Origin: Candidatus Kaiserbacteria bacterium
Lineage (GTDB): Bacteria > Patescibacteriota > Minisyncoccia > Phycocordibacterales > UBA2100
Direction: 5' to 3'
NCBI GenBank assembly: GCA_016217975.1
Contig: JACRFH010000051.1
Span: forward strand, 1 to 54,592
Length of the DNA stretch: 54,592 nucleotides
Every line of letters begins with the position of its first letter. The first letter of the stretch is position 1. The position numbers and the translations under genes are program-made. This document shows positions 15,264 through 45,780 of the stretch, piece after piece. Below the pieces are notes generated by a model. It saw nothing but the letters and a program-made list of their open reading frames with translations, did no database searches and was not told the DNA's origin.

Positions 15264-15304
15264 GTTTCCTAGTGGCTATTGGCTAATCCCTAACAACTAT
15301 TCAT

Positions 15305-20368: not shown

Positions 20369-20393
20369 ATGTAGGACACCCGATGTCCTACAT
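20369..20393. repeat. REP hairpin copy 2
   Basis: ATGTAGGACA-CCCGA-TGTCCTACAT. Confidence 0.95.
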
Positions 20394-20436
20394 GGAGATG
20401 GGGATAATGAGAAATTTCGAGACAGCAGAACGGGTA

Positions 20437-20465
20437 AAATGTAGGACATCGGGTGTCCTACATTT
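20437..20465. repeat. REP hairpin copy 3, inverted loop
   Basis: AAATGTAGGACA-TCGGG-TGTCCTACATTT; loop is the reverse complement of copies 1 and 2. Confidence 0.95.
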
Positions 20466-20589: not shown

Positions 20590-20724
20590 ATGTCCGCATT
20601 CAGGGGCTTCTTTGTACGCGTATTTTTTGTCCCACTTCTTACGTTTTCGTTTGTCGGCGCACCAGTCTTACAACCGATTTCTCTGGGGGCGCAACTAATA
20701 CTGAAGCCTTCGGTCGCGCACGCG
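20590..20724 (+). other. Signal peptide of the giant protein
   Basis: MSAFRGFFVRVFFVPLLTFSFVGAPVLQPISLGAQLILKPSVAHA|QA. Confidence 0.75.
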
Positions 20725-23700
20725 CAAGCAGTGGGCGCGGGCTGTGAACCTATTAAAGACAAAGACGGTAAGGTTACCGGTGCCAAGAACGTATCATGCA
20801 AAGGGAAATGCATTGTCGATAAGGAGAAGGCGATATGTAAGCTCGACGACAAGAATATTGTGCCAACGACCAAAGACGGCCAGCCAATCGAGGTCAAGAA
20901 ACTTCAGAGCGATTATGACGCGGCCAAGAAACAAGCTGATGAATTGAACACCAAGTGGAATGATTCGACAGATCCTACGAATCCAGATTTTAAAGATCCC
21001 ACTCTTGGTAAAGAAGCCGAAGCAGCCGGCGCAAAAGCACTTGAGGCGAAGATGAAACTTGAATCTGCGCTCTCGCAGATAGAGGCAATTGCTAATCCTC
21101 CCGATCCAACAATAACAAAACCAACAAGGCCAAATCTTCGTTTCGGACCTGGTACACCACTACCTGGAAGTAATGGGGCGGTAATTCTCACCCCTCCAAA
21201 TCCTGGTGACTTGCCAGCTTCGGGCGGTAACCCGAATGACAATGGCGCTCCGCTTGGGACTTCTCCATTGACCGGATTCGGCGCGGATACACCGGCACCG
21301 AATAGAAGTGTTCTTGATTCGATGGAAATTCAAGATTATTGGCAAAAGGCAGAGGAAGGACTGAAAGCAGCCGCCGACAAAGTATCTAACGCGCTCACTA
21401 ATCTTTCAGACAAAGCTCTCGCTGCGTATGACAGCTTCTATTCGCCTAAAGATGCGCCGCGATATCCGTATCTTGCAGACGACGGGATTTTCTATAAAGA
21501 CAGCATGAAGACCGAGATTGCGACGAAAGAGCAGATGGACATGCTCAAGTGGTCTCCGACGGGCAAAAGTGAATCATTCGCGTCAAAGGAACTTACCGAA
21601 GAAGATGTAGCAAAGAGTAAATTAAAAGGATTGCAATACGGACGCCAGGAGGCGTACGGCGGTTTGCAGAGTGCGAGAGAGGATCTAGAAGGTGGGTACG
21701 ACAAAAGCGCTGATGGAAAATATACGTGTACGTTCAAAGCACAATGCGAACAGCTCAACGCAGATATCGCCGCGTACAACGATGCGCTCAAGAAAGCGCT
21801 CGAGGCTGACAGTTCGTACATGGATTATTACAGTTCGCTTCCGCCTGCGCTCGCGAGCGACCTATCACAGCAAGGCGGCACGGGACAAAGCGGTCCGCCT
21901 GCACCGATTGATCCAAATGCCGTCGATCCGCAGTTGAAACCACTGGTCGAGGCATTGAATAGCGGCGATATTGCGAAGGCCCAGGAAGTAATGAAGCAGT
22001 TGGGACCTCTCTCGCAAGACGTGCAGGAATATCTCGGCCGCACACTTGCGGCCAACGGCATCAATATAGATCCCAATACAAAGGAACTCGTTGCGCCAAT
22101 ATACGCAAATCCCGATTGGGCCAAGCAGCTCGCCATTGGCCAAGAATTTCAGAACGAGCTCGGACAAATATCTCGCGTCGCTAGTGACCAACTCATCGGT
22201 GCCGCGTATGCGCAAGCGCAAGAACAGGCGCGGCTTGCGGAGGCGCAGGCAAAAGCAGCAGCGTTGACAGAGGCAGACGTGGCTCTCACCGATCGCGCAT
22301 CATTACAAGCTGATCAAGAAAAAGAATTTCTGCAGGCAAGGATAGATAAGAACAATGAAATCATAAAAACACTTGCACAAAACAGACTTGTACCGGACCC
22401 GAATAATCCGGGGAAGACAATAACAGCGAAAGCGCTCGAAAATAGGCTCACGGCGCAAAATAATGCGGCGCAAGCTCGGATCGAGGCGCTTGATGCAATG
22501 TCTGCGATCATCAATTCAAACGATCCGCTTTCGGATTATGTTGCAGAGAAATATCTTCAGGCGGACAATCTGCCCGTCCAGGAAGATCCCCAGGGACTAT
22601 ATGCAACGCAGACGAAATTCGGGAAGGATCAGATGTTAAAACAAATACAGGCGATCGAAGAAGAAGAACGCCGGCTTGAAGTCCTCCAGAGTCGGACGGG
22701 CGATGTATTTTCAGGACCTTCAAGAGCGGCGCTCGCAGATCAACAAGCGCGCATTGATGCGGCGCGTCAGATTCTTTCGGAAGTCGTAGATGCAACACCA
22801 TACAGTGCGGAGACTCAACATGCACTAGATAGATTTTCTGGAAATGGAAATTGGTATGAACGCGCTCTTGATTCAATGAGCGCCAAGATACAGGACCTCA
22901 TGGCCTTCAATCGTGATTTGTCAGGCGGTACAAGTGCTGTATTGGGATTTGGCGCAAATTTGGCCGAAACCGCAGTTCGTGATTTGGGAATTGTGACGTT
23001 CAATCCCACAGCACAAGATGTCGTAGGAGCTCTTGGATCCATCAGCACCGATCAGAGCTTGACGTACGGCATCGCATTTGGAAATACCGTACTCAACGGA
23101 GTAATCGTCGGTCAAGTCGGACTCGGTATAGCTCGAGGCATCGGGACGGCCATCGAAGCCACGAGTATTCTGCGATTTGGAAACGACAGTCTTGGGGCAC
23201 TGCCCGGAGTTTCTCGTTTGGCCGATGGAAGCTATGTATTGGCGACGGACTATGTTCGCGTTGAATCTTCGTTGTCGCGCAGCCTTCTCGCAGCGAAATT
23301 CGATGAAGTTAAATTGACAGCGCAAGAAGCGTTGGTAGAAGCGGGATATACCCCCGAGAGAGCACAAGCGCTTGTGCGCGACGGAGCAGAAGGTCGCCCC
23401 CTTCCGAGCGCCGCAGACCGGGTTGGACTACTCGAGGCAGGTGTACCTCCAGAACAGGCGGCTCGGATGATAGCGGATGATGCGGGAGCCCTGCGCCAAG
23501 CGCTACTAGAAACCGGAGTTCCACCGGAAGGTCTAGTGTCACTGAACAACAGTCTCAAAGGCGTTGCTCCGGTAAATGAAGCGCGACTCGCTGCGATAGC
23601 TAAAGAGGCGGAAGCGGTAAGCCCCAAACTTAAATTCGATCCAGATACAGGCAAGGTTTTGAATCCACAAACAGAGGCGGAGACCCTCAAACAGCTTGAA

Positions 23701-26700
23701 AAAGCGACGGGGATGAAATTCGCAGACCCAGAACTTACACGACTGGAAATAGCGCAGCGTGCCGCGGAGCGTCTCGAAGGTACCGGAATCAATTTCAAAA
23801 CAGGGCAGGAGATGGCGCTCACGCAGACCACGCGAGGAGGAGGTGTCACTCTTGCGCTCGGTGAAGGGAAAACGGTGGTCACGTTAGCTGATCGTATATA
23901 TACCTACTTAACGGATCCAAAAGCAAACTGGATGCTCATGGCACCGGTTAACGACTTAAAGAAATTCGGCGGGCTCTACGGAGACCAACTTGCAGGACTT
24001 GGCTCTAAGACTCTTCTCGTGACGAACGACGAGAAATTACTCGGCTCGACTGCACCAGGATTCAAAGCCGTATCGTTCGAGAATTTTCCTGCAGAGCTAA
24101 AAAGCAATCCTGGTGCCACAGTGCTTTTGTCGGCAGAAGAATTCGGACATCTGAAAAGTTTGATCACGCTTGAAGGCGGAGCAGGCGACCTCACGAAATT
24201 GCTGCGAACCATCAGGAATGTTGTCATTGATGAGGCGCACAGGCTTGCAGGAAGCAATGTCGCGTCTGTTATCGGCAATGAGGCGCGAGTCGTCACATAT
24301 GCAGAGCGTTCGGCATTACGTGCGGATGAATTTCTCGGCGCTATCGGAGCCAAAGCCGAACCTGGAACTGTTCTTGCTGAGGACAGATTAGTCGCGAATC
24401 CGGATATCGTGCGGAGACTTGAGGGAGATCTGCCGTCAGGAAGGGTCTCGACGGATTTAAAAGCGGCGCTCGCTGATGATCCTGCGGCGTTTCAGCAGAA
24501 CCCAAATAGGATGTATCTCGTTCCTGAAACGGGAGATGGAATCATTGGCACTCCGATCATGAATGATGCATTCAAGCAGTGGATTCGGGATAGTCTCAAG
24601 ATGGATCCGACGGATCCGATGATAGCCAACGTATTGAAAACGATGGAGTGGACTGCAGGCAAAGACTACGCGATCATAGACGGTTCCGGTAAGGCAATAA
24701 CGACACGAACAGCTTCAAATCTGGGAGAAGCGAAGGTCGTAACGATGGATCCAACTCGCGGACCGCAGGCCAATATGCGATTCAGCGAGCCAGAGATCTC
24801 CATCACTGCACAACTGAAACACGGATTAACAGATTCTGCCGTGGAAGTAACGCAGATTGCTGCGGAAACTCCTCTTACGCAACTATTCCGCGTTATGCAG
24901 GGTGAATCGGGGCCACCGCGCGTGGGGGCGCTTTCGGCAACACTCGACGGTCTCGAAAAATTGGTCGAAGCGGGCGTACCGATCGATGGCATCCTGCATG
25001 TAAGTCCGTCTCGTCTAAACGTCGCCTCTTTCAAGACTCTCGATTCTGCGGCAGAAGGCAGAGCATTGTTGTTCGATAACTTGGCAAAACAACCGAATGC
25101 TTCACCGTTATTGCCGAAAGATGTGTCCTTCTCTGAAGCTCAAAGACTTTCGAATACTCATTCATTCGGGTACGCGACTGATCCTGTCGAATTTGCGCGT
25201 CTGGAAAAGGCTTTCAACGAAGCGTCAGCCGCTGGCGGACCACTTGAAGGATATCAATTCGTGAAATATCAGAACGGTGTTGTTTACAAGAACGGGTTTG
25301 AGGTTGGGACCGACCCGAATGCCGTCGTTAAGAATTTATATAAAGAATCCCCGACGTTCGTTCTTTCTGATGCGGCGGGCACGAATGGCATCAATAATCA
25401 GGCCAAAGGACTTGGCGTACGATTCGGGATCGGGAGCGGAGAAGACCTGGCCCAGAACGTCGGACGGTTATCGCGCACGAGTTCACTTCCAGGCGGTGGG
25501 AGATGGGAAAGCGAATTTTTCGTCGTGAGAGATGAATCCGCCCTAACAAAGCAACTTACAGGCTCGCTGCGTGCGGAAAATGCAGATTCGATGCTGATCG
25601 CGCTCAAAGCGAGCGGGGGCGATGATATGCTCGGCGCGAGTCTTTTTGAAAAAGCACAGACAAAGGGTCTCGGAGCGCTTAGCGGAGAAGAACAAGTTGC
25701 ACTCCTCGCGAAAATCACTGATGCGGAACGCTTGAGCAATATCACCAATAACGCAATATCACAGGGAGCGATTGCGACGAGAATCACGAATCCCGTTAAA
25801 GGAATGTTGGAGAGTGCGGCAATAACGGGAGAGGCACAAAGTTTTGCCGAAAGGATGTATCTCGACGCTATTGCGCGCAAGCCCGCACCGGTAGACTTAT
25901 CTTTGAATCCCAGTGGCGGACGTTTAACAAACGATTCCTATTTCAACGCCGGATTCAAGGCATGGGACGCACAAGCTGCACAGTTCGTTGAAAAATGGGA
26001 AGGATTGCTTGCAAAAGAAAGTGGCGCAACGCAAACCGCCTTAAAACCTGCATTTGATGCATGGAAAGAACGGTTGGCCGAAGCTGCAGCGAAGCCGTAT
26101 GCCGAGGCCGTGCCGCTTAGGGGAACATTTGCAGCCGCCTCACCTCTTGAATCGATGGGAATTGCTAAGACGCTTTCTGAAGCAGTAATTCCGCCGACGC
26201 TTTCAATACAGCCAACTGCCGTTGCGACACTCGGTAAAGATTTTGCTGCGCTTTTAGCTGATGCGCGCGCAGGAGCCTTGACGTCTGGCCGCATTGAGGC
26301 CGAACTTGCTGCGGCGCGTAGAACACTTAGTACCGACCCCACTCTCACTGCAGCCGCAAAGGCAGCTGCAGGCGTCGCCGACGCGCCATTTGCTCTCAAG
26401 TTTGCAGGAGCGGGTGATCTTGCTGCGGCAATGGGGATGGTAAATGCGGCAGTCGCTGCATACGAGCAAAATCTTACTGCTGCTCAACAAGCGGTAACCG
26501 CACTCCAGGGCGCGTCAAGTTTCGACACCGAGCTTCAGCAGCAGCAGCTTCAAAATCTCCAACAAGCGTTGAATGGTCTTGCACAAGCAGGCTCTACTCC
26601 ATCCGAATTCAAAGGTCTTTCTCTGACTCCAACAACGGATCTTTCGAAAGCTGATATTCCTGTACTCACGAACGATGTTCTTGCGCAAGTTGGTGAAAAT

Positions 26701-29700
26701 AAGACCCGACTTGCCACCAGCAAGTTGCCACTCCCCGGGATAGTGCGATTGGGAATGCGAGGGGATGCTGACACAAGTGCGCGACAAGCGAGCCCCGTTA
26801 CTGCAGTATCCGGTCCGGCAAAGCTTGCGGCTGCGCAACGCAAGCCACCAGCGGGTACGCTGGCGCCGGCATCAGCTCCGGCGCCACTCGCGAATACCTA
26901 TTTTGTGCCGACTGCGGCGCAGGCGGCAATTCCGACGGCGGTTAATCCAGGGACGTGGAATCCGGTAAGCGCGAGCAAATGGAGTGCGGCTGATTGGAGT
27001 TCGCGTATTGCGGCGGTGAAGCAGGTTGCGCAGACAACGCCGGGGCCGGTGGGTGCTGCTTATGCTTCGGCGCAAGCGAATCTTGAAAGCGCAAGGAGAT
27101 GGTCTCCGTCGGGAAATATTTTCGCAAAGGTGTTTGCCACAGTAATGAGTCCAATCGCCGATATCAGAATCACTCAAGCGGCGCAAGACATCAGGACCGC
27201 GCAATCGCTCTCAACTCCCGTATCCGAGCAGCTTGATCCAAGCACCTGGAGCGACAACGCGCGCGATTGGTCGCCTGCGCAATTTGCGGTCCGCATCGCA
27301 GAAATGACGCAGCTCGCCGCCACCTATAACGACAAAAAATCTACCGCATACAATTCAAAACTCGGGCCTGCATTTGCGGCTGCAAATGATGCACTCAAGG
27401 CCGCGCAAGCGAAGAGAGGCAGTATTCTCGCCAAGACCCTTGATCTTGCCAAACGTCTGATTCCTGTTCTTGGTAATTCGGCAGACAATGACATTACAAA
27501 AGCTGGCGACGCAATGCGCACGGCGGAAAATATCGCCTTTGTTCAAAATATTGCTTTCGCCCCAACGCCGGCAACCTCTCCAAAAGATACGGGCGCGATC
27601 GCAAAAGACACGCCGCTTGCGTCAAGGACGCCAGCTACGAAGGTTACGACGGATAAGATTAAAATCGTACAAAACTATGTAGATGCGGTGCAGGCGCTTG
27701 CCGATGCCAATAAGCGAGAGACGGCATCCAACGCGCCGTCCTTCTCCAATCTCTTCAATCTGACTGCAGCGCAGCGCAAAGCAACCGCAGCTAAAATAGA
27801 AAAAGGTGTCGAGAAGGAGCGCATACTGCTCGCGGCCGCACGAGCTGATCTTGCACAATTTGGATATGAACCATTTGAAGATATAAAAGGAGCAAAGGGT
27901 ATCATCAATTCAAAGGGCGAAGTACTTGCGAGGTCAACAACTCCCAGTGGAATCATGGTGGTCGTCGCGACGTTCGACACTCTCGTAGCCAATCCGCTAG
28001 GCAACACGACGTTCACCTTCGAGTCTGATGCGATTCAGGCATATCGCGATGCCGTGCAGAAACAGATAGATGCAGGTGATGATGAAGCTGCGAGCTTGAC
28101 TGCTGAAGCGGATCAGAATGTCGCACTTAATTATCTAGAGAAAAAAGGATCATCACTGACGGATGCAAGAGCAAGAGCATGGGTGGATGCAAAGCAAGCG
28201 TCAGCGCGCGCAGACAAAGCAGCAATTGATGCGCTCAATACCTACGGTGCGGGATCGTTGCAACTTAAGGCGGCGGACGACGCTGCCGACGCCGCGAAGC
28301 AGGCGCAAAAAGATGCGCTCTCAAATCTTGCGTACAACGAACCGAAGGGATGGGCTCAATACTTCCGCCGAGCCGCTGCATTTTCGGTACCGCTAGGCGG
28401 ACTTCTGCTCGGCGCACTCGCGTTTGATCCTACCGGCGTCGGCGGCGCGACGCTTGCAGTCGCAAGTTTCTTCGGTTTTGGAGCGAGACTTTCCGATGGA
28501 ACAGAAGTTGTACAGCCATCAGTTGGTCGTCCATATCGGGTTGCTGCAGACCTGACGCAGTCCCAACAAGCACAATTAAAATCTCGGCTTGAAGAACATC
28601 GCAATGTTGCGCGGTCTGCCCAACCGTCGGAACTCAAGCAGAAACTGGCCGGTCTCGTAAATACGATTCTCGGCAAAGAATTTAATAGGCTTGGTTTACG
28701 TGATGCAGAAGGTAATTCGCTTTTCCTGCCGCTGCAGGCAAACGAAATAGGCGGCATATCGATCAATAGTTCTGCGAGCTATGATCCGCTTCCAGATAAG
28801 ATCGCGATACGAGATTTCGAATCAATCGCGCAAGCTCCGCGGCGATTCAAGACCCTCCTGCATGAAGCGATCCATCAAACAGGTGCCACGACGCTTACGT
28901 GGGGAAGTTTGATGGGTATTGGTGAGCCCGGACCGAAAGATATACGGAGTGGATATGACCCGACGTACAGTCGCAGCTTCAACGAAGGGCTCGTTGATAG
29001 CACCGCCGAGAGACTTATCCGCGAGAACGCAGCATTGCTTGCCAGTGCGTTTCCAGGGACCACTGTAGAACAATGGCAACAATTCAACTCTTCCACTTAT
29101 GACGACGAACGTGCGTTCAATGCGAAATTCAATCAGGCAATTGGTGCGGCGCAAGGGAAAAGTGCAGCAGAAGCGCGAGACGACATATTCCGTGGGTATG
29201 TGAAAGGCGACGATGCGCCCATACGGCAAGCCGAGACCGTATTTGGGAAGGGGACTCTCGCAATACTGCGCGATATGCGTCTCAATACATCGGACCAAGT
29301 CAGCAATATCAATGCATATTTCTTTTCGAATAATGCTGCAGAACGTCAACTTGCAGCGCAAAATCTTGCCAATGCTCGTACGTCTCTCTTTGCCGGGCTG
29401 ACTTCTGCGCAAACCGATCAGGCTCTCCAGAATATAGATGTCGCTATCGATGCCACAGATCGCGAAGTGCAATCTGAAATGACGAATTTGAAGGACCAAC
29501 TTAGCCGAGCTGTGAGCGGCGCATCCGCGAATGATCCGCAGGTCAACGATCTGCTAAAGAAGGTAAGTCTCCTCAATGCATACGTTGCCGCAGAAGCACA
29601 AGCGCAAGAACTTGCAGCGAATACCAAGGTTCAACCTCCCCAACCTCCACAGCCTTCGCAAAATGCTACGGCGGGCACAGCGCCCGCGGCTACGGCGGGC

Positions 29701-35700: not shown

Positions 35701-38700
35701 ATGTCGATTTTAGATACAGGGGGCATCCAAAGCCTGCAGGATAAGCTTATCGCCGATTACTACAAGTCTCCCCAATTCCAGAAGCTTCTCACGAATTACA
35801 CGGATGGCGAGCCAGGCGCCGACGCTCTTACCTCTGAAGAAGTTGACACATCTAAGGCAACGTTTGTTATCGCGGTGCACGACGCGCTGTTCAAGGCGCT
35901 TCCCGATGATCCCGATTTGGAAAGTGCCCTCCTCTCGGCGCGATTATTCATTTACCAGAGCCACGGTCGTATAGCGGTCGAACAGCGCAATGTAAATGTC
36001 ACGAATAATCTTGATGATCTCCTTAAGAAAATCGGATCGCAACCGGTCGTGCATGTCTTTGGTGCAGCGCATTTTGAGGACCATTACGACACCTTCTATC
36101 AGCAAGCGACGCACAAGATCCAAGATGCCTGGGATCAGAAAGGCTTTTCATATATCGTAATAACTCCTGCGGCGATGCTTGAATCGGGCAATGCTGTTGC
36201 GATCTCCTTGGCTGGCGAGTATCCGCCGACTCCCGCGGATGTGGCTGCGGATGACCAAGCAGCCAGAGATGCTCTCGCGAATGCAAAGAAGGTTGCAGTT
36301 GCCCCACAGACTCCTGCCGCTCCAGCGGTGCCGACGGCACTTCCGCCACAGCCGATAGAGCAGGCGCAATTGCCTAAGCCCGGTGCAGGTCCTAGTGCGC
36401 TGCCGCCCCAGCAAGCTAGCCAGCAGGGAATCCAAGACTCGGGCAAATATGTGTCGCTTGCTCAAGCCCGAGCACCAATTGTGCTCGAGATACAACAGGA
36501 TTCCGACTTGCGCCGCCTTATTATGGCCTCGACCCAAGCGGAGGTTGGCGGCCAAGGACCGGTGTCGGAGCAAGCGTACATCGAGTCTGCAATCAACCGG
36601 AACTTGAGTGAAAAGTCCGTGAATCCAAGTGTGACATTACGACAGACATTATCATCACTATATAATCCGGTCACCCAAGAAGGATATTACCCAGCTACAA
36701 CCATAAATAAACTCGGTGCTAGATTCTCATCTGCGGAGCAGGCACGCATGAATGTCATCATTGATGCGGTACTCGCCGGCTCCAACATCTCGAATCTCGC
36801 GACGGGCAATGAGTCGGGCCCAAATATATGTTTCGGTAACTGTGTTCCCGTGGTCGACCTTGCAACAGGAAAAACCATGCAGTGGACCTTTAATCCCGGC
36901 AGAGGTGAGCGCTTCGTCCTTGAGAGTCCGACCGTGGCTTGGAGGAATGACATGCTAAGCAAGCTCGGGCGGCCGGGAACTACACTTCCCGGTGCGACTT
37001 CGCAGTCGACGACGCTCGCGCAAGCGCTTGTGAATCAGGGTCGTATACAACTGAAGCAAGGAGAACAAATGATTCAGACAGGAATTGATCAAACCGCAGC
37101 AAGCCCTACGTATACTTTCTTTGTCTATGATCCTGCCGTCGAGTCATCAGGCCACACGGTTCAGATGCAGCAAGTTCCATCGGGAGTACAGACAGTGACG
37201 CTGCCTGCGGGGAAGATTACGATTGACCGTGTAGCGGTACTCGCACCCGATGTTGGAGAATTATATAAGCAGGCGATTCGAAATGGAGGATCGAAAGTAC
37301 GGCTCGGCGCTTTTGATTCGGAATTTGCCGCGGACGTTGGCCGAGCATTCGTTCGATTCTATGACATACGTAAGTATGTGCCGGGCATGACCGATGCACT
37401 TCGTCCGCAGAATGCGAAATACGGCGCAAAAAACAGCGGACACAAACTTGGCGAGGCGTTCGATTTCGGGTATAGGAGATTTAAACGAAGCAGTGATATC
37501 GCACTGTTCACACAGCTCTTGCGAGAGGAGGGCGTTGCCGTGAATCCAGAGCCGAACGCTCCAGGAGGGCCACATACCCACGCCGAGAAGAATCTGCGGC
37601 CATACAAAGGCATGCTCCCAGCGCTCGGAAATTCATCAAGAAATCTTACAAGCAAGAGCGTAAAGCAATTCGCACTCTTCACGCCAGATGCCAAGGGCGA
37701 ATTTACCCAGCAGATAGGGCAAGCATTTGTGCTTGCACCTGCTTCGCAGCAGTCTCCACAGGTAGCGACCACCCCCGCAGGCGGTGGGGCCAAGGATTTC
37801 TCGGATGGTATCAACAAGGCCGCTCTTCAACTCTTGCATAATGGTGACAAGATTCGTCCGGTCAAAAACAATCCTGATGCCGCAATCGTGACGCGCGGCA
37901 AGACGCAGTTCAACCTTGTGCCTGACCCGGCAAAGCCAGGTGTCTACAATCTCGTAAATAGGTCCACCAAAGCACTTGTCGCCTCCGCCGACATCGCGCA
38001 ACAACCAGCGGCGGCGCCTTCGCAATCGCTCGCCGATGCTCTCGCTGCGATAAATGTGCTGAACGCAAAGGGCCAGGTGGTTACGGTGATTAAAACACCG
38101 TATGCGCCAAATGGATATACCAATTGCACCAAAGTCGAGGGATGCGATGAGGCGCAATCTCCCAATCTCGAAGGAGAACTAAATAAGTCTAGAAAAACGC
38201 CCATGGTGCGCACCCTTGTTGATGTAGTGGAGGGCAAGAGTTGGTACATTACACTCGCGGGCGGCAAAGACCAGGCCAAGCGCGGGGATTTTTATTTCAT
38301 CCCCACAATTGAGTTTATAAGTCCCAAGGATCACCTGATCTACGTGCTCTCGACCAATGCAGCTCTTTTTCAAGGCAAAGGATCGAGATTTACCGACCCA
38401 GTGAGCAAAAAGACGTATGTGTATTGGTCGGGCATAGGTTATGTGCACGATATCGGCGGCGCTTTTCCAAACGGCACGGCCAAAAAAGATATTCCCGTTG
38501 CGCATTTCACAGGAATAATGAGTGATGCACAGGGCGCTCGCTTTGTAAACGCACAGGGGACACTGAACGGACCAAGCAAATGGATCTACCTGGGTACTTC
38601 AAGAGCGACAGCAATTGCGCTCTCCAATTCCGCGAAAAACGTCGCGCTTGCCCTTGCGCCTCCGCAACCCGGTACTTCGGTAGTAGCTAATCGGGATGTA

Positions 38701-41700: not shown

Positions 41701-43674
41701 CAGAATGAGAACAATCTGGCGCAGGCGCTTTTGGAGCAAGCGCCGGATTTGATCGCCCAGGCAGACAAGCTTGCTCAAGAGCGCATCGCCAAGAACGAGG
41801 CCGATGCAGCTGTCGCCGCCGCCGAAGCGGCTGCTGCGAAGTCGAAACCCGACCCGCGGCCAGCGATTGTGCAATCCGCTCCTTCCGTACCGACTGCTGT
41901 GCCTGTTGTAAGTAAGCCCACAATTGTCGTGCTCGGCGAAACACCCGATGCGTATCTTCCGCCGAATGTGCGCACTCCAGAGTCTCGTGAAAGGACGCCC
42001 GCGCCGGCGCAGATTCCGTTGCCAATCCCTGTTGCAATTCTTCCCTCACCGCTCTTACCAGTGAGGGCACCTTCAAATCAATCCCCGTTTGGAGGAAACT
42101 CGGCCTTCACTCTCGCGCCAATATCTCCAGAACAAGAGAAGCCGAAACCGAAGACGCCTTCGACGGGTTCGGACCAATCGCAAGCAGGAAGCGGGACGAG
42201 TATCGCCGGCATCAATCCTCCGACACTTCTGGTCGTCATACCTCCTCCGCCTCCGCCAAGCTCTCTGTGGACGCGCTTCTTACTCGTGCTCGGCCTTGCC
42301 ACAATTTCGCAGCAGAACAACAATGCAAACACGAATTCAAATACCATTCCGAGTGTCAATCCAGAGTCATCGCAAGTGACACAAGTGACAACTGCAAATC
42401 TTCCGGTACCGATTCCGGCGATTGTGATCTTGCCCACGTCGCCAAATACTGGTGTCGTTGCGCCAAATGCGCCAGGTACAGAAGTGCCTGTCTCCGAAGC
42501 ATCACCCGGCGAGCCCGCCGCACCGGCTTCTCCTGTCGCTCCGGCGACACCGACGGCCGCGCCCGGGACGATAGAATTTGATAAAGACGGCAAGGAAGCT
42601 CCCAAGGCGTCTCCGGCGTCGCAGCCTCCCGCGTCGCCGGGCACGACCCCGCCTGCACCGAGCTCTCCGGCTTCCACTCCTGCGCCAAGCGCACCTTCAG
42701 CTCCGTCTCCAGAGAGTCCGACGCCCGATCCGGATAAGAATGATTCGTGTTTTGTCGACGGCAAAGTAGTTCCGACCTGCAATACTCCTGAGAAAGATTG
42801 CACCATCGCGAATCTCACTGGCACACCTTGCCAAACGCCGGATACGACGAAGACCGGACCAGATACAACTTCTACTGGTGGAGGCGTAACGCCAAGTGGT
42901 ACGACTCCACCGGGCGGCGGCGGATTTAATCCAACCTCGATAATTGGACTTATCGGTGGACTTGCCAAACTTCTCATTCCTTTTACGAATCCAACGACAC
43001 CAATCGCGCCACCTTCTCCCTACGGTATTGGTACCGATGGTCAGTCATGCACGCAACCTCCAGCGCAGCCCACTAGTGCGTGCGCAAATGGCACATGGCG
43101 CGCGACATCAGGAATCAATGGATGTACGACTGGCTGGCAGTGCGTACCGAATGCTCCGGCGACCCCGGGTTCGACAGGCTCACCGCAAGCAACACCCACG
43201 ACACCGTTCACGAACATCCCGCCACAAAATCCTTCGCCAACATCTCAACCTTCAACAGTGCCAGCCCAGCAACCCAGTCAGACCAATAACCCAACCGGCT
43301 CGGGCATGACGGGAGAAGCGTTCTTTATAAAGCTCGGGATGTCGGGAGCAGTCCCGATTCCTGCTTCCGGTCCTGTCTCACTTGTGGTCTCACAGATACA
43401 ACTCATCGCGGGCGCGCCTCCGGAAGCGCCGCAGCTTCTACAAGAAGCACCGACGGCGCCCACGCTTGCGTCCGTGTTGCAGGGAGTGAGTGATTTCTTG
43501 CGCGGTATCATGGCATCCTTGAGCAGCAATCTTTCGGGCTCATCGACGTTTAGGTCAAACGATCTTAGCGGCGTCACTGCGGAACCAACTTTTGGAGCTT
43601 TCACCATCAGCTCGGTGCTCTCCGGCATCGTGAATTTTCTGCGCGCCTTCCTCACCCCCTTCAGCGGGCAATGA
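20590..43674 (+). CDS. Giant predicted secreted/surface multidomain protein (7694 aa)
   Basis: Single uninterrupted ORF; signal peptide ending ...KPSVAHA; SecA-like ATPase motifs, TM segments, Hint/intein, HExxH motifs, peptidoglycan-active-like domains, coiled coils, Pro-rich and Cys-containing C-terminus. Confidence 0.9.
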   Translation: MSAFRGFFVRVFFVPLLTFSFVGAPVLQPISLGAQLILKPSVAHAQAVGAGCEPIKDKDGKVTGAKNVSCKGKCIVDKEKAICKLDDKNIVPTTKDGQPIEVKKLQSDYDAAKKQADELNTKWNDSTDPTNPDFKDPTLGKEAEAAGAKALEAKMKLESALSQIEAIANPPDPTITKPTRPNLRFGPGTPLPGSNGAVILTPPNPGDLPASGGNPNDNGAPLGTSPLTGFGADTPAPNRSVLDSMEIQDYWQKAEEGLKAAADKVSNALTNLSDKALAAYDSFYSPKDAPRYPYLADDGIFYKDSMKTEIATKEQMDMLKWSPTGKSESFASKELTEEDVAKSKLKGLQYGRQEAYGGLQSAREDLEGGYDKSADGKYTCTFKAQCEQLNADIAAYNDALKKALEADSSYMDYYSSLPPALASDLSQQGGTGQSGPPAPIDPNAVDPQLKPLVEALNSGDIAKAQEVMKQLGPLSQDVQEYLGRTLAANGINIDPNTKELVAPIYANPDWAKQLAIGQEFQNELGQISRVASDQLIGAAYAQAQEQARLAEAQAKAAALTEADVALTDRASLQADQEKEFLQARIDKNNEIIKTLAQNRLVPDPNNPGKTITAKALENRLTAQNNAAQARIEALDAMSAIINSNDPLSDYVAEKYLQADNLPVQEDPQGLYATQTKFGKDQMLKQIQAIEEEERRLEVLQSRTGDVFSGPSRAALADQQARIDAARQILSEVVDATPYSAETQHALDRFSGNGNWYERALDSMSAKIQDLMAFNRDLSGGTSAVLGFGANLAETAVRDLGIVTFNPTAQDVVGALGSISTDQSLTYGIAFGNTVLNGVIVGQVGLGIARGIGTAIEATSILRFGNDSLGALPGVSRLADGSYVLATDYVRVESSLSRSLLAAKFDEVKLTAQEALVEAGYTPERAQALVRDGAEGRPLPSAADRVGLLEAGVPPEQAARMIADDAGALRQALLETGVPPEGLVSLNNSLKGVAPVNEARLAAIAKEAEAVSPKLKFDPDTGKVLNPQTEAETLKQLEKATGMKFADPELTRLEIAQRAAERLEGTGINFKTGQEMALTQTTRGGGVTLALGEGKTVVTLADRIYTYLTDPKANWMLMAPVNDLKKFGGLYGDQLAGLGSKTLLVTNDEKLLGSTAPGFKAVSFENFPAELKSNPGATVLLSAEEFGHLKSLITLEGGAGDLTKLLRTIRNVVIDEAHRLAGSNVASVIGNEARVVTYAERSALRADEFLGAIGAKAEPGTVLAEDRLVANPDIVRRLEGDLPSGRVSTDLKAALADDPAAFQQNPNRMYLVPETGDGIIGTPIMNDAFKQWIRDSLKMDPTDPMIANVLKTMEWTAGKDYAIIDGSGKAITTRTASNLGEAKVVTMDPTRGPQANMRFSEPEISITAQLKHGLTDSAVEVTQIAAETPLTQLFRVMQGESGPPRVGALSATLDGLEKLVEAGVPIDGILHVSPSRLNVASFKTLDSAAEGRALLFDNLAKQPNASPLLPKDVSFSEAQRLSNTHSFGYATDPVEFARLEKAFNEASAAGGPLEGYQFVKYQNGVVYKNGFEVGTDPNAVVKNLYKESPTFVLSDAAGTNGINNQAKGLGVRFGIGSGEDLAQNVGRLSRTSSLPGGGRWESEFFVVRDESALTKQLTGSLRAENADSMLIALKASGGDDMLGASLFEKAQTKGLGALSGEEQVALLAKITDAERLSNITNNAISQGAIATRITNPVKGMLESAAITGEAQSFAERMYLDAIARKPAPVDLSLNPSGGRLTNDSYFNAGFKAWDAQAAQFVEKWEGLLAKESGATQTALKPAFDAWKERLAEAAAKPYAEAVPLRGTFAAASPLESMGIAKTLSEAVIPPTLSIQPTAVATLGKDFAALLADARAGALTSGRIEAELAAARRTLSTDPTLTAAAKAAAGVADAPFALKFAGAGDLAAAMGMVNAAVAAYEQNLTAAQQAVTALQGASSFDTELQQQQLQNLQQALNGLAQAGSTPSEFKGLSLTPTTDLSKADIPVLTNDVLAQVGENKTRLATSKLPLPGIVRLGMRGDADTSARQASPVTAVSGPAKLAAAQRKPPAGTLAPASAPAPLANTYFVPTAAQAAIPTAVNPGTWNPVSASKWSAADWSSRIAAVKQVAQTTPGPVGAAYASAQANLESARRWSPSGNIFAKVFATVMSPIADIRITQAAQDIRTAQSLSTPVSEQLDPSTWSDNARDWSPAQFAVRIAEMTQLAATYNDKKSTAYNSKLGPAFAAANDALKAAQAKRGSILAKTLDLAKRLIPVLGNSADNDITKAGDAMRTAENIAFVQNIAFAPTPATSPKDTGAIAKDTPLASRTPATKVTTDKIKIVQNYVDAVQALADANKRETASNAPSFSNLFNLTAAQRKATAAKIEKGVEKERILLAAARADLAQFGYEPFEDIKGAKGIINSKGEVLARSTTPSGIMVVVATFDTLVANPLGNTTFTFESDAIQAYRDAVQKQIDAGDDEAASLTAEADQNVALNYLEKKGSSLTDARARAWVDAKQASARADKAAIDALNTYGAGSLQLKAADDAADAAKQAQKDALSNLAYNEPKGWAQYFRRAAAFSVPLGGLLLGALAFDPTGVGGATLAVASFFGFGARLSDGTEVVQPSVGRPYRVAADLTQSQQAQLKSRLEEHRNVARSAQPSELKQKLAGLVNTILGKEFNRLGLRDAEGNSLFLPLQANEIGGISINSSASYDPLPDKIAIRDFESIAQAPRRFKTLLHEAIHQTGATTLTWGSLMGIGEPGPKDIRSGYDPTYSRSFNEGLVDSTAERLIRENAALLASAFPGTTVEQWQQFNSSTYDDERAFNAKFNQAIGAAQGKSAAEARDDIFRGYVKGDDAPIRQAETVFGKGTLAILRDMRLNTSDQVSNINAYFFSNNAAERQLAAQNLANARTSLFAGLTSAQTDQALQNIDVAIDATDREVQSEMTNLKDQLSRAVSGASANDPQVNDLLKKVSLLNAYVAAEAQAQELAANTKVQPPQPPQPSQNATAGTAPAATAGTAQTAPAAQGIAQGNPFPLPSFISNRIQNTNWVKRLPQAIVVGATVAVGAVAYFAAAQLGVPLPGHWGTQAYLDTVWHGIGTGIIAGTTALGVTAVLSAGTYFWNGLKGTPNAPPATVAETEQQLPSNRTNLITQLGVGAVTIGLALWGAPLLAVLPVAVGGSIAVSYMSGNAVRSVPNPQDNTTITENRGTLFGTVAAKFPGSLAQFFARFPFIGQAAVASSAAVTGVLGLNPILGPATIYASIYFFRPVVLAILSTYTGQKLALGVETFGLRTVQFLTGSRDLTFFGYSFPKISFGLRTAGQIALARALSIPLFSLPIGALSNVTGTTAYINTIRGGVSVVPPNVATLALDIAKGKVTNLDALTSRVASLGTRSPASPQPAPGQQEIPIASGAAPLPGIVVVETPAPVPTTGAGGPPPPDATAPKVTPVVAAGAVLTAALDQLKAAEKAIDDFRQDQEMQDLLRSNPTEGQRRFDALLAGKDKARTDLATAVPLSQILAATKASDLPVGNEGIMQYPINQDLRVNVMSDLRIVDVSDPSHPIVKQVLGGKTVADVVKEFGSSPATKGTPIAVNTPPAALPTPQKTSPEAQCVTADTKLRRRKLKKGEKGADKDGYIYDDVMIKDIVPGDEIASMDPISGVLVYSRVNALINKGVQTIYQLTTQSNRRIRTTDAHPYFVRTKYDTGAKAREIQKLYRFEVDMSMKIENYSADSIIAIANTEQSFTIEVSRKVKQTLRDRTRHLNKSKRFLPAVFALGIVEALRNMETRVHELVIDTDYLTYDALITRIIHEFFPTIHLSFDQVGKHSTAHLAAYKVHKNKKAADMVAAIESFSIKTENALRATFSSNLSAEPPVGPQASSDMAKVHEQDEIVKKGEWTIVKEIREGQMIAVTYGNRVVWEKIVKIDKQAPERVYDIEIEGTHNFIGNDIVAHNTQVGSTPAVSLNQPQPGEFDSIAANPPIVKAGPVASAILDQSQVQSDEQKALAIFNANFKSWSNFFISHKDQLQDIASQLDAQNLNNTIIASSINYAIKSGSLLQDTLQRGIVASNDFSTRKVTAEQMQELKALALYVIGAEPRPEFVNLRWYQPQTVARQLEPTLADLDRQGLGNTLTARAIADAIQASLLGRETRPDLADAKALGLEGKIPQPQAVSTVPPPQSSLATLAKPTSGDYQKLFAVLLLGDKYKQNSAKYEAMVPFMINSVALPAGTVESPSIDSFKTDDSAKAEIRKGWDQMMAYLTKEYAAQGRQFIAPKLNLEATPEGYAWSLPGYNPNTKTVTIDIAYYRNGLASKYSSDGTPIKRVESTNLMNVFADAAHEIGHHVQYSVARAPNGPINGDAFEQNADQIGARLLAGAGILTQKNAFQFFTAVVADADDIIKAQSTNANAAYTDPHGGARERVQASAQGVGDKDLTASLDTLVKAGLTIDWNKAPALASGPQKTGAIQIPTQQVPAGLSGQALAQIGTNIKNGIDSLVTLVQSRSGQSTQAQLAQQQTVAKMTTTQVGSFANDTVNTLNTFWTDYFAVRGATFKPITAVPDANNITYDLPSSRVLFDAGLLQNLAVTRAPNVGKELIDEILAHEIGHAFQQQAYGIGRGIGMQTMPATSQRSAELNADWIAGFSLAKTGIVAPNNAAKVAKLIANLQSPGVPGYPTSAERERAFTSGFQTALNGGEVDKVFAEYPITGLSPRITFAIPQKGGGIAPQLADPTNLIRAAGVIGGWISTAWDGTKFVLSEARREILPLPATGNTAELPKATLTPDQQAAIARYDAAKAAFALSLVKNATLPMEAFNAAARPLKAELDAATLNLSDSGIVITTDATGPTAMALASTGQIIRATPSTPAPSITKPDKFAVPFIQQPTLARSTVGAPKVPFDSILSQVQAMIGNNGTITQVKNNGGPVIIAIPQIHDVGYLPGATGGVDDKTIQRIQDQIMTIRAGIIVAGISTSLIPEGSLMGNEETIAGDAKFYGIESRQIATLMMSQFTDFIGKQYVKDNKASLMSILDTGGIQSLQDKLIADYYKSPQFQKLLTNYTDGEPGADALTSEEVDTSKATFVIAVHDALFKALPDDPDLESALLSARLFIYQSHGRIAVEQRNVNVTNNLDDLLKKIGSQPVVHVFGAAHFEDHYDTFYQQATHKIQDAWDQKGFSYIVITPAAMLESGNAVAISLAGEYPPTPADVAADDQAARDALANAKKVAVAPQTPAAPAVPTALPPQPIEQAQLPKPGAGPSALPPQQASQQGIQDSGKYVSLAQARAPIVLEIQQDSDLRRLIMASTQAEVGGQGPVSEQAYIESAINRNLSEKSVNPSVTLRQTLSSLYNPVTQEGYYPATTINKLGARFSSAEQARMNVIIDAVLAGSNISNLATGNESGPNICFGNCVPVVDLATGKTMQWTFNPGRGERFVLESPTVAWRNDMLSKLGRPGTTLPGATSQSTTLAQALVNQGRIQLKQGEQMIQTGIDQTAASPTYTFFVYDPAVESSGHTVQMQQVPSGVQTVTLPAGKITIDRVAVLAPDVGELYKQAIRNGGSKVRLGAFDSEFAADVGRAFVRFYDIRKYVPGMTDALRPQNAKYGAKNSGHKLGEAFDFGYRRFKRSSDIALFTQLLREEGVAVNPEPNAPGGPHTHAEKNLRPYKGMLPALGNSSRNLTSKSVKQFALFTPDAKGEFTQQIGQAFVLAPASQQSPQVATTPAGGGAKDFSDGINKAALQLLHNGDKIRPVKNNPDAAIVTRGKTQFNLVPDPAKPGVYNLVNRSTKALVASADIAQQPAAAPSQSLADALAAINVLNAKGQVVTVIKTPYAPNGYTNCTKVEGCDEAQSPNLEGELNKSRKTPMVRTLVDVVEGKSWYITLAGGKDQAKRGDFYFIPTIEFISPKDHLIYVLSTNAALFQGKGSRFTDPVSKKTYVYWSGIGYVHDIGGAFPNGTAKKDIPVAHFTGIMSDAQGARFVNAQGTLNGPSKWIYLGTSRATAIALSNSAKNVALALAPPQPGTSVVANRDVISPPASAVPTGKPIVITETTPPDTYLPTLMQLAKPATPPITVPASASNEVPSVIPIGNTPVTLATVQGMMEQGAAPPNGKAEPKSDGTYWLFAADKTTRVYLVQTAPGLYVLIANGQRVGNEFALALEGGATAKPEPAAPPKSETTPPATPPQDVAFAQTDLAAATQKAASVKTALEDAQKQQQNVDKLAKNITTNIKALRDAGTQMETSSTGAELKARFVNASKKGIALIASLTQLQSAPNISDATRVQITAALSVAGVQAQMKLEIYAFAARPTVNPFGKAPSQNSTKRDLMQKLAPMKLQLAMGLKNAEAAIANAKTESAASVQTAQSGLNDANVALATAQQALANAQKKSAESPAPVVVVPPTPNPPVPAARPDAGPQPAVVQFPEKITKFGAFAEKPVTAKTSSISQDAAAVEQAQKNAQVQAAADAEARAQRKTTRDQENALAERLKTAAEFQIRRTLKLDPNDLPPREKYNEGGAVFDLRNQLYDSTEVLLSNRVAQIEDDISALPVGRLRSETDTTKLAMLEPQLEAAQKALHEFKTARDKEDNDAFDVFVAKQQKNHLSQKGLTYWTGDFKAKVKDKIAKILTDDMNSLVYYYDLIPHATRAEDAPEFLALYARLQLVLAPTQPGETEAWRGEIAKMRTRLDINGKMDLLTLNQLEKLQQRVINKLIVLESPAEEPAVPSADQKPTTTDAPTVIAEAPPIEIPLAEQGVELRKASNVASEAEKNLLDRVEELRLVADAAEKAAAKAKKTLADADAAIKTAQEDSNTAKTTYNKLLAQIQPAKTTLANATALDANMKVVQEAYDRADKDANSLTRAKTIASAKLAYATAHDQYNIFNDKGKVIAKKDGILRTLPLIMDNPLLSTADKAANNLDLATVERRLGHFNYDIQNAEVLLEQHGRDALIAAGTTAANDAVKAAQRIINRAKASLVTLAELKKGQKYDAASMLVLLETKQKTLADAAENANKDWATWQAKLVNAQKAYVDATKANEKAQNENNLAQALLEQAPDLIAQADKLAQERIAKNEADAAVAAAEAAAAKSKPDPRPAIVQSAPSVPTAVPVVSKPTIVVLGETPDAYLPPNVRTPESRERTPAPAQIPLPIPVAILPSPLLPVRAPSNQSPFGGNSAFTLAPISPEQEKPKPKTPSTGSDQSQAGSGTSIAGINPPTLLVVIPPPPPPSSLWTRFLLVLGLATISQQNNNANTNSNTIPSVNPESSQVTQVTTANLPVPIPAIVILPTSPNTGVVAPNAPGTEVPVSEASPGEPAAPASPVAPATPTAAPGTIEFDKDGKEAPKASPASQPPASPGTTPPAPSSPASTPAPSAPSAPSPESPTPDPDKNDSCFVDGKVVPTCNTPEKDCTIANLTGTPCQTPDTTKTGPDTTSTGGGVTPSGTTPPGGGGFNPTSIIGLIGGLAKLLIPFTNPTTPIAPPSPYGIGTDGQSCTQPPAQPTSACANGTWRATSGINGCTTGWQCVPNAPATPGSTGSPQATPTTPFTNIPPQNPSPTSQPSTVPAQQPSQTNNPTGSGMTGEAFFIKLGMSGAVPIPASGPVSLVVSQIQLIAGAPPEAPQLLQEAPTAPTLASVLQGVSDFLRGIMASLSSNLSGSSTFRSNDLSGVTAEPTFGAFTISSVLSGIVNFLRAFLTPFSGQ
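23655..25540 (+). other. SecA-like SF2 (DEAD/DEAH) ATPase domain inside the giant protein
   Basis: Walker A LALGEGKTVVTLADRIY (GEGKT at 23860), Walker B NVVIDEAHRLAG (DEAH at 24229), motif VI-like AQNVGRLSRTSS (25450-25476). Confidence 0.75.
26944..27550 (+). repeat. Two-copy protein repeat of about 95 aa in the giant protein
   Basis: NPGTWNPVSASKWSAADWSSRIAAVKQ...ITQAAQDIRTAQS versus DPSTWSDNARDWSPAQFAVRIAEMTQ...ITKAGDAMRTAEN. Confidence 0.75.
28640..29040 (+). other. Zincin-like domain 1 of the giant protein
   Basis: LLHEAIHQTG (HExxH at 28861) followed by FNEGLVDSTAERL. Confidence 0.65.
29790..30710 (+). other. Multi-TM segment cluster within the giant protein
   Basis: AIVVGATVAVGAVAYFAAA; GIGTGIIAGTTALGVTAVLSAGTYF; LGVGAVTIGLALWGAPLLAVLPVAVGG; AAVASSAAVTGVLGLNPILGPATIYASIYFF. 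Confidence 0.7.
31477..32502 (+). other. In-frame intein / BIL-type Hint domain (342 aa) in the giant protein
   Basis: Cys1 CVTADTKLR (block A), RTTDAHPYF (block B, about 31711), VYDIEIEGTHNFIGNDIVAHN|T (blocks F/G). Confidence 0.88.
33190..33910 (+). other. Zincin-like metallopeptidase domain 2 of the giant protein
   Basis: FADAAHEIGHHVQYS (33652) ... FEQNADQIGARLLAGAGI ... DPHGGARERV. Confidence 0.7.
34200..34720 (+). other. Zincin-like metallopeptidase domain 3 of the giant protein
   Basis: EILAHEIGHAFQQQAYG (34441) ... RSAELNADWIAGFSLAKTG ... YPTSAERERAF. Confidence 0.7.
35330..36175 (+). other. Tiki/TraB (EreA/ChaN-like) hydrolase-like region of the giant protein
   Basis: VIIAIPQIHDVGY ... 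STSLIPEGSLMG ... VVHVFGAAHFEDHYDTF. Confidence 0.45.
36440..36960 (+). other. SleB/lysozyme-like region of the giant protein
   Basis: RLIMASTQAEVGGQGPVSEQAYIESAINRNL ... TGNESGPNICFGN (candidate catalytic Glu codon at 36541). Confidence 0.5.
37250..37620 (+). other. LAS/M15 (VanY/D-Ala-D-Ala peptidase-like) domain of the giant protein
   Basis: SGHKLGEAFDFGYRRF (SxHxxGxAxD-type; His codon at 37441) ... GGPHTHAE. Confidence 0.65.
38080..38600 (+). other. 3D/double-psi beta-barrel-like region of the giant protein
   Basis: GYVHDIGGAFPNGTAKKDIPVAHF resembles the aeDtGgaIkG..iDvyf motif; preceded by TPYAPNGYTNCTKVEGC. Confidence 0.4.
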
Positions 43675-43700: not shown

Positions 43701-44756
43701 ATGCGAGAAGGACCACGAAATTGGGGCAAGAAAATAACGAATACGCTTGGCGCGGGCGTCGTACTTGGCAAGGTTCTCACCGGCATACCTGCAGAAGCAG
43801 GTCCAAGCAAAGTTGCGGGCGCAGAGACTCAGATCCCACCGCGAGCCGAAGCACAGAAAATATCGCAGGATATTTTAAATCCGGCGCTCATACCAGACGC
43901 AGAGCTGCAAGACAAGATGGACAACATGAAACGTACGTACGAATCCCCCAATTTCACCAACGAGCAGTTCTTTCAATTTCTTGGTGACGGGCAGGAGATC
44001 GCCGATTCTTTCTGGAGGGGGAAGAGGGCGGGAATGAAAGTATTCGAATTCAGCGCCGTCGGAAAGAAGAGTCGCGAGCATGATCACAAGAATCTACGCG
44101 AGCCAGCGGGACTCTCCAGAAATTCCGCAGATACGAGCAACATGTTTACGATGTTATTTGCGCCTGATCTCAATGGGAAGGATGCGCGCGTACTCTCGAT
44201 GGCCTCGGGTCACGATCAGCCGGGCTGGTCGCGTGAATATAAAATCTCCGGCGATGTCGCGGCGAAATCGCTTGGTCGCGCGGAGCCTGGTTCCGAATAT
44301 CCTGATTTTGTGGCGATTGCCATGCAAGAGGGTATGCACCAACTCGGCATCACCGTTGGGCCTTCTTCTGCTGGTAATGATCAGTTTGTCGGATACGTAT
44401 TTGATCCAAAGAAAGCGCTCGATCGCGGTTTCTTCCACTTCGATTTCTCGCAAGTTGATTCAAAACTGAAGCATATTGATTTTGATGACATCATGAAAAA
44501 CGGCGAAGTATTCTGCAAAGTTCTCCCTTCTGGCGTGAGCACGGAGACTAATCCTCTCGCGTATAGGTCCGGGACCATGGAGCTTATAATCAAGGAAGGC
44601 AAACCTCGAATCTTCGGGAGCCAGATGATTCAAGCAACCATTACGGAGGGGAAAAAGCCGGATGGTGCCGCGCCGAAGTCCTTTAAGATTCTTTGCTTCG
44701 GGGGACCAGGAATTATTCAGAAGGCGGGCGAGTTGGCAATAGCTGCAGGAAATTGA
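43701..44756 (+). CDS. Hypothetical protein
   Basis: 351-aa intact ORF directly downstream of the giant gene. Confidence 0.7.
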   Translation: MREGPRNWGKKITNTLGAGVVLGKVLTGIPAEAGPSKVAGAETQIPPRAEAQKISQDILNPALIPDAELQDKMDNMKRTYESPNFTNEQFFQFLGDGQEIADSFWRGKRAGMKVFEFSAVGKKSREHDHKNLREPAGLSRNSADTSNMFTMLFAPDLNGKDARVLSMASGHDQPGWSREYKISGDVAAKSLGRAEPGSEYPDFVAIAMQEGMHQLGITVGPSSAGNDQFVGYVFDPKKALDRGFFHFDFSQVDSKLKHIDFDDIMKNGEVFCKVLPSGVSTETNPLAYRSGTMELIIKEGKPRIFGSQMIQATITEGKKPDGAAPKSFKILCFGGPGIIQKAGELAIAAGN

Positions 44757-45196: not shown

Positions 45197-45757
45197 ATGA
45201 CCATAGCCTATATCATTCTCGGCATCGTAGTTCTTATCATCCTCTGGGCAATATATGCCTACAACAAATTCGTGACGCTTACCACAAGGGTGAAGGAGGC
45301 TTCGTCGGACATCGATGTGCAATCGAAGCGGCGATTCGATCTCATCCCAAATCTCGTCGAGACGGTGAAAGGCTATGCGAGCCACGAAGCCGGTACCTTG
45401 ACCCGCGTGACGGAAATGCGCACGCGTGCCATGAATGCCACTGCTCCTGCAGAAAAAGCCGAGGCGGAGAACATGCTCTCTGGAGCGCTCAAATCACTTT
45501 TTGCCGTATCAGAGAATTATCCCAACCTGAAAGCCAACGAGAACTTCGTCGAGCTCCAAAAGCAGCTTGAAGACACCGAAAACAAAATGCAAGCAGCGCG
45601 TCGTTTCTACAACTCGGTCGTCCAAGATCTCAACGTCGCCGCGCAAAGCTTCCCCGGCAATATCATAGCCGGCATGGCGGGTTTCAAGCAGTCGGATTTC
45701 TTTGTTCTTTCCGAAGGCGATGCAGCAGCAAAAGAGCCCGTGAAAGTGAAGTTCTAG
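45197..45757 (+). CDS. lemA: LemA family protein
   Basis: YNKFVTLTTRVKEASSDIDVQSKRRFDLIPNLVETVKGYASHE...ARRFYNSVVQDLNVAAQSFPGNIIAG; AAAGG SD. Confidence 0.95.
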   Translation: MTIAYIILGIVVLIILWAIYAYNKFVTLTTRVKEASSDIDVQSKRRFDLIPNLVETVKGYASHEAGTLTRVTEMRTRAMNATAPAEKAEAENMLSGALKSLFAVSENYPNLKANENFVELQKQLEDTENKMQAARRFYNSVVQDLNVAAQSFPGNIIAGMAGFKQSDFFVLSEGDAAAKEPVKVKF

Positions 45758-45780
45758 CCGCCGTTTGTTATAGTGCTGCA

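Follow-up and report, generated by a model that had tools for sequence, protein, structure and literature searches.

A central question about ultrasmall Patescibacteria, and one still open, is by what means they recognise other cells and open them. The locus described here raises it through a single gene: what might a predicted exported protein of 7,694 amino acids do for a bacterium that is itself very small and probably host-dependent? The window, meaning the whole stretch of DNA analysed, is the complete 54,592-bp contig C39 of a 943,729-bp Candidatus Kaiserbacteria genome (65 contigs, 90.6% complete), and about 2.5% of this assembled genome is taken up by the one gene. The genes around it run in the order groES–groEL, secreted proteins of 328 and 532 aa, a RAYT-type transposase gene, the giant, a 351-aa protein, lemA and htpX (Table 1). 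The RAYT/IS200-type transposase gene occupies positions 19697–20449 of the reverse strand (Pfam PF01797, 1e-6). The reverse strand of the window also carries a cytochrome oxidase operon at 48021–52534 (COX1 at E = 9e-145, plus other genes resembling oxidase subunits); genes for aerobic respiration are unusual in Patescibacteria.

Table 1. Coordinates of the giant gene, its regions and its neighbours in the 54,592-bp window.
Feature	Position	Strand	Evidence
groES–groEL, left edge of the variable locus	14940..16951	+	groEL synteny in the genus
Secreted 328-aa family member	16967..17953	+	46% over 76 aa to the N-half of the G023 861-aa protein; four-Cys profile 9.4e-9
Secreted 532-aa family member	17950..19548	+	42% over 184 aa, E = 1e-30, to the other half of the G023 861-aa protein
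Giant secreted protein, 7,694 aa	20590..43674	+	One frame; codon-position GC pattern over the full length
Signal peptide, aa 1–46, ending ...SVAHAQA	20590..20727	+	Sequence; hydrophobic peak aa 9–27
N-terminal four-Cys module, Cys 52, 70, 74, 83	20737..20847	+	By eye, C..C.GxC..C as in alignment A2
SF2-type ATPase-like region	23815..25479	+	ResIII E = 0.001, DEAD E = 0.008 (aa 1040–1280); motif chain
Zincin-like region 1, HEAIH aa 2758, NEG..D.TAE downstream	28687..29169	+	MPTase-PolyVal 0.006, weak
Hydrophobic, membrane-like segment cluster, aa 3076–3360	29797..30669	+	Kyte-Doolittle scan
Intein, 342 aa, Cys3630–Asn3971, +1 Thr	31477..32502	+	Pfam Intein_splicing 1.2e-17; NCBIfam intein_Cterm 9e-8
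Zinc metallopeptidase A, HEIGHH aa 4355, E..ADQIGA	33388..33789	+	Zn_peptidase PF04228 5.3e-7 (tile); YpfJ-type 1.8e-9
Zinc metallopeptidase B, HEIGH aa 4618, ELNADWIAG	34177..34794	+	M48 1.3e-4 (tile); homology to the G051 giant
TraB/PrgY/gumN-like stretch, GAAH motif, aa ~5121–5162	35950..36075	+	E = 0.0054, weak
M15-type peptidase core, H5618-x6-D5625 + H5662-T-H5664	37387..37629	+	Homology to G023 Peptidase_M15_3
Pro-rich C-terminal region, two 4-Cys clusters, aa 7387–7518	42748..43143	+	Sequence
351-aa protein, directly downstream of the giant	43701..44756	+	No Pfam or PHROG match
lemA–htpX, right edge of the variable locus	45197..46674	+	LemA 1.6e-58, M48 2.6e-36

One coding frame with an export signal

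The sequence-only reading described the gene as one uninterrupted reading frame of 23,085 nt, and this description holds: the frame is free of stops throughout and has coding-type composition all along. The GC content of codon position 1 (0.56–0.67) exceeds that of position 2 and equals or exceeds that of position 3 in 15 of 15 steps of 1.5 kb, which identifies the gene as one coding frame from end to end. A stop-free frame of this length is not a product of chance, and its length is not explained by repeat inflation, since the window contains almost no tandem repeats. It is exceedingly improbable that the gene represents an assembly artefact or a chance open reading frame. It is known from a single MAG contig and lies just downstream of the transposase gene; against an artefact stand the coding composition, the synteny of both flanks with other genomes, and the independent assemblies that carry open reading frames of 2–5 kaa at the same place.

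The signal peptide seen from the letters is matched by a signal-peptide-like N-terminus, and no other strong hydrophobic segment precedes aa 2595. The membrane segments seen at the same time correspond to internal hydrophobic segments at aa 2595 and in the cluster beginning at aa 3076, and the Ala-rich stretches and the Pro-rich, Cys-containing C-terminus are likewise present. The intein-like element can be named an intein: the Intein_splicing model scores 64.5 bits against a cut-off of 35.8, and the terminal Cys3630, the His-Asn3971 pair and the +1 Thr are in place. No homing-endonuclease family was matched in the centre of the intein, where PHROG matches were weak only.

Peptidase and wall-active regions

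All three of the HExxH motifs claimed for the giant are found. The second and third belong to tandem zinc metallopeptidase copies, and the tile holding both scores 29.8 bits with Zn_peptidase (cut-off 23.2); copy A alone scores 22.5 bits, just under that cut-off, and the equivalog-level cut-off of the NCBIfam YpfJ model is not reached by the giant's metallopeptidase. Copy B is homologous to a domain of a giant protein from a sister genome (G051; Z = 18, 0 of 500 shuffles). The comparison of the first zincin motif, HEAIH, with the HHELQH of the same G051 protein was not significant. No viral contigs carrying the giant's protease region were found.

Further downstream, a stretch whose direct Pfam search returned only DUF5715 (0.003, weak and far from the Pfam cut-off) is classed as M15-type because the ligands are present (S-G-H5618-x6-D5625 and GPHTH5664) and because it aligns with the Peptidase_M15_3 domain of the giant of genome G023, itself a Pfam match at 1.7e-11 (SW Z = 9.8, 0 of 500 shuffles). 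AlphaFold2 modelling of the region from two sequences gave a pLDDT of 37.5. The alignment of the M15 site with the VanY domain of the G051 giant was not significant. The matches of sub-regions to MPTase-PolyVal, TraB/gumN, DUF5715 and ResIII/DEAD are weak when taken singly. Several peptidoglycan-active-like regions had been proposed; the M15-type one passed a test and none of the others did. A SleB-like reading of aa ~5370–5490, made by eye, was dropped after no Pfam match appeared at E ≤ 5. A DPBB profile built from the sister proteins found no RlpA/DPBB match in the window giant.

At the level of sequence, the reading frame, the predicted export signal, the intein, the zinc peptidase domains and the M15-type site can be regarded as established, and the broader prediction, a Patescibacteria/CPR genome encoding an exported protein that combines proteases with one or more wall-peptidase-type sites, is borne out. 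It could be argued instead that the giant is a long surface attachment fibre whose enzyme-like regions have degenerated or do no more than bind. Its large Ala-, Pro- and Gln-rich regions, the Ig-like C-termini of sister proteins and the interpretation of giant Vampirococcus surface proteins as fibrous attachment proteins (PMC8080830) would suit a fibre; the HExxH motifs keep their downstream Glu/Asp and the M15 site keeps its H-x6-D...HxH ligands, which argues against decay, and a simple fibre is considered decidedly unlikely.

An SF2-type ATPase-like region

The motifs GEGKT, DEAH and QNVGRLSR had been taken as signs of a SecA-like ATPase, and they do occur in the order given: motif I (GEGKT, aa 1091), motif Ia (VND), motif II (DEAH, aa 1214), SATL and motif VI (QNVGRLSR, aa ~1622–1629). 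The chain I-II-VI (G.GKT - DE[AV][DH] - [QHR]..GR..R) and the SecA-like spacing of motif I to Ia, GEGKT-x(20-32)-VND, were each found in 0 of 5000 shuffles of the giant, figures that are indicative only, the patterns having been picked after the protein was seen. The region shares with SecA and other SF2 helicases a GEGKT Walker A motif, VND and DEAH at SecA-like spacing, a long insert before SATL and an arginine-finger-type motif; this insert spans about 220 aa from DEAH to SATL, and its position is reminiscent of the SecA PPXD. Unlike SecA, the region has no match to the SecA profiles PF07517 and PF01043 (giant's tiles, E ≤ 0.5; sub-regions, E ≤ 5), and its best HMM matches, to ResIII and DEAD, are weak and fall under the curated cut-offs.

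A profile of 31 SecA proteins did not match the giant by hmmsearch with filters off, hhalign of a SecA profile against the region gave scores inside the range of shuffled controls, SecA sub-motif HMMs gave no credible match to it, and phmmer with the region against the PDB found nothing at E ≤ 10. With all profile tests negative (Pfam, PDB, the 31-SecA profile, hhalign and sub-motif profiles), the SecA-like claim does not hold beyond generic SF2 motifs; homology to SecA was rejected as unproven, and the region is named SF2-ATPase-like from its motifs. No homologues of the region turned up among 98 relatives, in 397 genomes from the order or 380 from the phylum, or in one scan of a contig database. 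The sole weak match (L003) is a subtilase-like protein, regarded as a chance hit. AlphaFold2 modelling from the single sequence gave a mean pLDDT of 36.5. The region is predicted to be exported because the signal peptide precedes it without an intervening strong hydrophobic segment. An ATPase-like region that is presumably exported has no ATP supply, a point that counts against the preferred reading given below.

A hypervariable locus between groEL and lemA–htpX

A search for homologues in related genomes, which had been suggested as a check, returned counterparts of the giant from the corresponding locus of sister species. A genus of Patescibacteria whose relatives are named Ca. Kaiserbacteria retains the order GroEL-[variable]-LemA-HtpX. 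GroEL and HtpX were mapped over 52 genomes of the genus; HtpX is present in 46, and both genes lie on one contig and strand in 36. The interval between them is 741 bp at its shortest and, in the window, 28,833 bp at its longest; it exceeds 5 kb in half of these genomes (18/36) and falls below 2 kb in 13. Secreted proteins of about 330–7,694 aa were found inside the 22 intervals examined. The locus of G023, reached through the window's 532-aa protein, has the same flanks around an 861-aa protein and a 5,021-aa open reading frame; the window's 328- and 532-aa proteins match the two halves of this 861-aa protein. The window's 351-aa protein has no relative among the proteins of the sister loci.

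The larger intervals hold single open reading frames of 4,137, 3,292 (start uncertain), 3,287, 2,657, 2,389, 2,274, 2,241, 1,997, 1,976, 1,918, 1,904, 1,711, 1,663, 1,572, 1,568 and 1,380 aa, plus smaller ones. Other long members include one of 2,156 aa in G038, one of 2,389 aa reaching the contig edge in G012, and an open one of 3,383 aa in G044, where no flanks are visible on the contig. In G051 the locus encodes a 651-aa member, and another giant, of at least 3,872 aa, lies elsewhere. This off-locus frame (L006, contig C23) is open at both contig ends and carries a zinc peptidase, a PP2C phosphatase and VanY (2e-7), and possibly SGNH/alpha-beta hydrolase domains. RAYT/IS200-type genes lie inside the GroEL–LemA interval of three genomes (those at L016 1820–2527 and L021 1763–2458 were assigned by eye), and such a transposase is a possible agent of the variability of the locus.

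Proximity of GroEL, LemA and HtpX is widespread among 80 HtpX loci from a contig database, the titles of which name Kaiserbacteria, Adlerbacteria, Nomurabacteria, Vogelbacteria, Taylorbacteria and others; among those with GroEL and LemA, a large open reading frame lies between them only where the contig matches known members of the genus. On an Adlerbacteria contig (L058, 2936–12331), an open reading frame of at least 3,131 aa starts 0.6 kb past htpX and runs off the end of the stretch without a stop. In other groups, giants may also lie on that other side of the locus. No description of the groEL to lemA–htpX giant locus was found in the open-licence literature, and its novelty is provisional.

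Constant ends and an exchanged middle

At the N-terminus of the locus proteins, a signal peptide is followed by a small four-Cys module, for which alignment A2 has four near-invariant Cys and a GxC. The four-Cys profile matches in 44 of the 52 genus genomes (E ≤ 0.01), and in 297 genomes of the order (E ≤ 0.001) all matches fall within the genus and none in the roughly 290 others. The window giant's own copy is not among the family-profile matches, since its Cys spacing is too short, though the Cys order is the same; its placement in the family rests on the locus, the signal peptide and the architecture, with the Cys order judged by eye. The module also occurs in relatives of 400–600 aa elsewhere in the genomes. 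On contig C31 of the window genome (L155, 9483–12029), tandem proteins of 405 and 438 aa with a four-Cys N-terminus and an Ig-like C-terminus follow polA/holA-like genes, and single relatives occupy the same context in G025 and G041.

Practically all sister proteins have one N-terminal hydrophobic segment and few internal ones. DPBB domains of the RlpA type are found in G001, G002, G003, G007, G023, G025, G030 and G049 (best Pfam E 8e-21, others 5.8e-8 and 1.7e-5), Amidase_2 in G025 and G049 (1.8e-10 and 3.6e-8), PG_binding_1 in G002 and G049 (1.8e-8 and 1e-14) and OmpA in G001 (9e-6). Many of the sister proteins end in an Ig-like C-terminus. The syntenic hypervariable locus and the recurrence of predicted murein-binding and murein-cleaving domains in its products are well established, as is the strong bias of the family as a whole to domains predicted to process peptidoglycan and protein.

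In pairs of genomes with 91–95% identical GroEL, the giants often align at their ends only, the middle having been replaced. The products of G033 and G035 (GroEL 95.1%) measure 1,976 and 4,137 aa and align only over the first ~300 aa (34%). Those of G005 and G006 (GroEL 91.5%) align over the N-terminal ~190 aa and a C-terminal stretch of 64 aa, and those of G003 and G018 (GroEL 92.2%) over 270 N-terminal aa (37.5%) and 79 C-terminal aa (78%). G003 and G038 (GroEL 93.8%) have most of the length in common at 44–62%, with internal blocks rearranged. By these alignments, the giants have constant ends and a middle that appears to change by exchange plus fast divergence.

One way to account for the family is maturation of the cell's own envelope, in which the giant and its relatives would reshape the peptidoglycan and S-layer of the bacterium itself, or serve as a scaffold for them, and the variability would reflect a relaxed or lineage-specific wall architecture. 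RlpA-type DPBB, OmpA and PG_binding_1 domains are common in self-wall proteins, the neighbours LemA and HtpX are envelope-quality factors, and the genomes with an interval below 2 kb apparently do without a giant at this site. Proteins with self-wall functions normally keep their sequence, whereas here the middle is replaced between close relatives, and three peptidase-like regions together with an intein and SF2 motifs would be odd for a wall-maturation factor; this account is rather unlikely.

Relation to known systems

Intein/Hint domains are known from secreted polymorphic proteins. Like polymorphic toxin systems, the genus giants have a constant export end and a rapidly exchanged payload; unlike them, the payload lies in the middle and the C-terminus is constant. 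An effector of this sort, the constant ends of which would carry the variable middle with its enzymes into another cell, a setting in which the ATPase-like region could be active, would accommodate both the architecture and the presence of cytoplasm-type SF2 motifs, as well as the intein, in an exported protein. Polymorphic toxins vary at the C-terminal tip and not in the middle, and no toxin domain, immunity-like gene or dedicated secretion system was seen in the locus; the pairing of a C-terminal toxin with an adjacent immunity gene was not found, as no toxin family was detected and the 351-aa neighbour has no matches. Such delivery is very improbable.

Giant surface proteins have been described in predatory CPR bacteria, with 1,392–4,163 aa in Vampirococcus lugosii (PMC8080830) and more than 1,500 aa (surface or membrane proteins) in S. 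methylophilicida (PMC13059738). They resemble the genus giants in belonging to Patescibacteria, in being very large and exported or surface-located, and in their inferred role in host contact, but they are described as membrane-localised, with WD40, PKD, FN3 and similar adhesion domains (PMC8080830, PMC13059738). The genus giants mostly have a signal peptide and no or few membrane segments, with murein- and protein-cleaving domains, an intein and a fixed hypervariable locus, and the two groups belong to different classes. In PMC12057145, which cites the West-Roberts et al. preprint, giant genes from Omnitrophota and other PVC lineages are interpreted as cell-wall-degrading surface weapons. The likeness lies in giant reading frames read as wall attack; as described there, those proteins are set apart by lengths of up to 85,800 aa, many membrane segments and carbohydrate-active domains. 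Omnitrophota giants have also been reported to carry divergent SecA DEAD domains and to be linked to predation; the SecA link was not found in the open-licence literature.

Discussion

The reading preferred here, to which a probability of about 0.55 is given, is that the window gene belongs, as the largest member known so far, to a family of modular giants that is specific to the genus and encoded between groEL and lemA–htpX; these proteins would be exported by Sec, act on envelopes, be diversified by internal domain exchange and probably be used at cell contact. After export, the giant would stay at the cell surface or in the wall, and the intein would splice itself out. The metallopeptidases and the murein peptidase may then act locally on protein and peptidoglycan layers, opening or trimming them. 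Export, folding (through disulphides) and anchoring would fall to the constant ends, and the middle would be a payload that can be swapped to suit the envelope encountered. Since the middle is diversified between species with nearly identical GroEL, selection at a host or prey envelope interface is suggested over housekeeping. The family would thus function at an envelope, and its speed of change favours contact with other cells; targeting of hosts is a presumed role.

Several points weigh on the other side. In the window protein only one murein-peptidase-type core passed a test, homologous murein enzymes serve the cell's own wall too, and the neighbours GroEL, LemA and HtpX are housekeeping or envelope-quality genes. 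It can be proposed, as a tentative extension held with less confidence than the preferred reading, that the groEL to lemA–htpX hotspot is a diversity generator for giant secreted envelope-attack proteins, in which export and anchoring ends are kept and swaps of protease, murein-hydrolase and even ATPase-like domains rebuild the middle, so that each species is tuned to its host.

The domain content and the pattern of change suggest a fast-changing tool for handling cell envelopes. The locus can be found by synteny, from groEL to lemA–htpX, and its products differ almost entirely between close relatives, which makes it a concrete candidate for host-interface machinery. The near-complete change of these products also explains why homology searches miss such proteins, and host specificity becomes testable by comparing species with known hosts.
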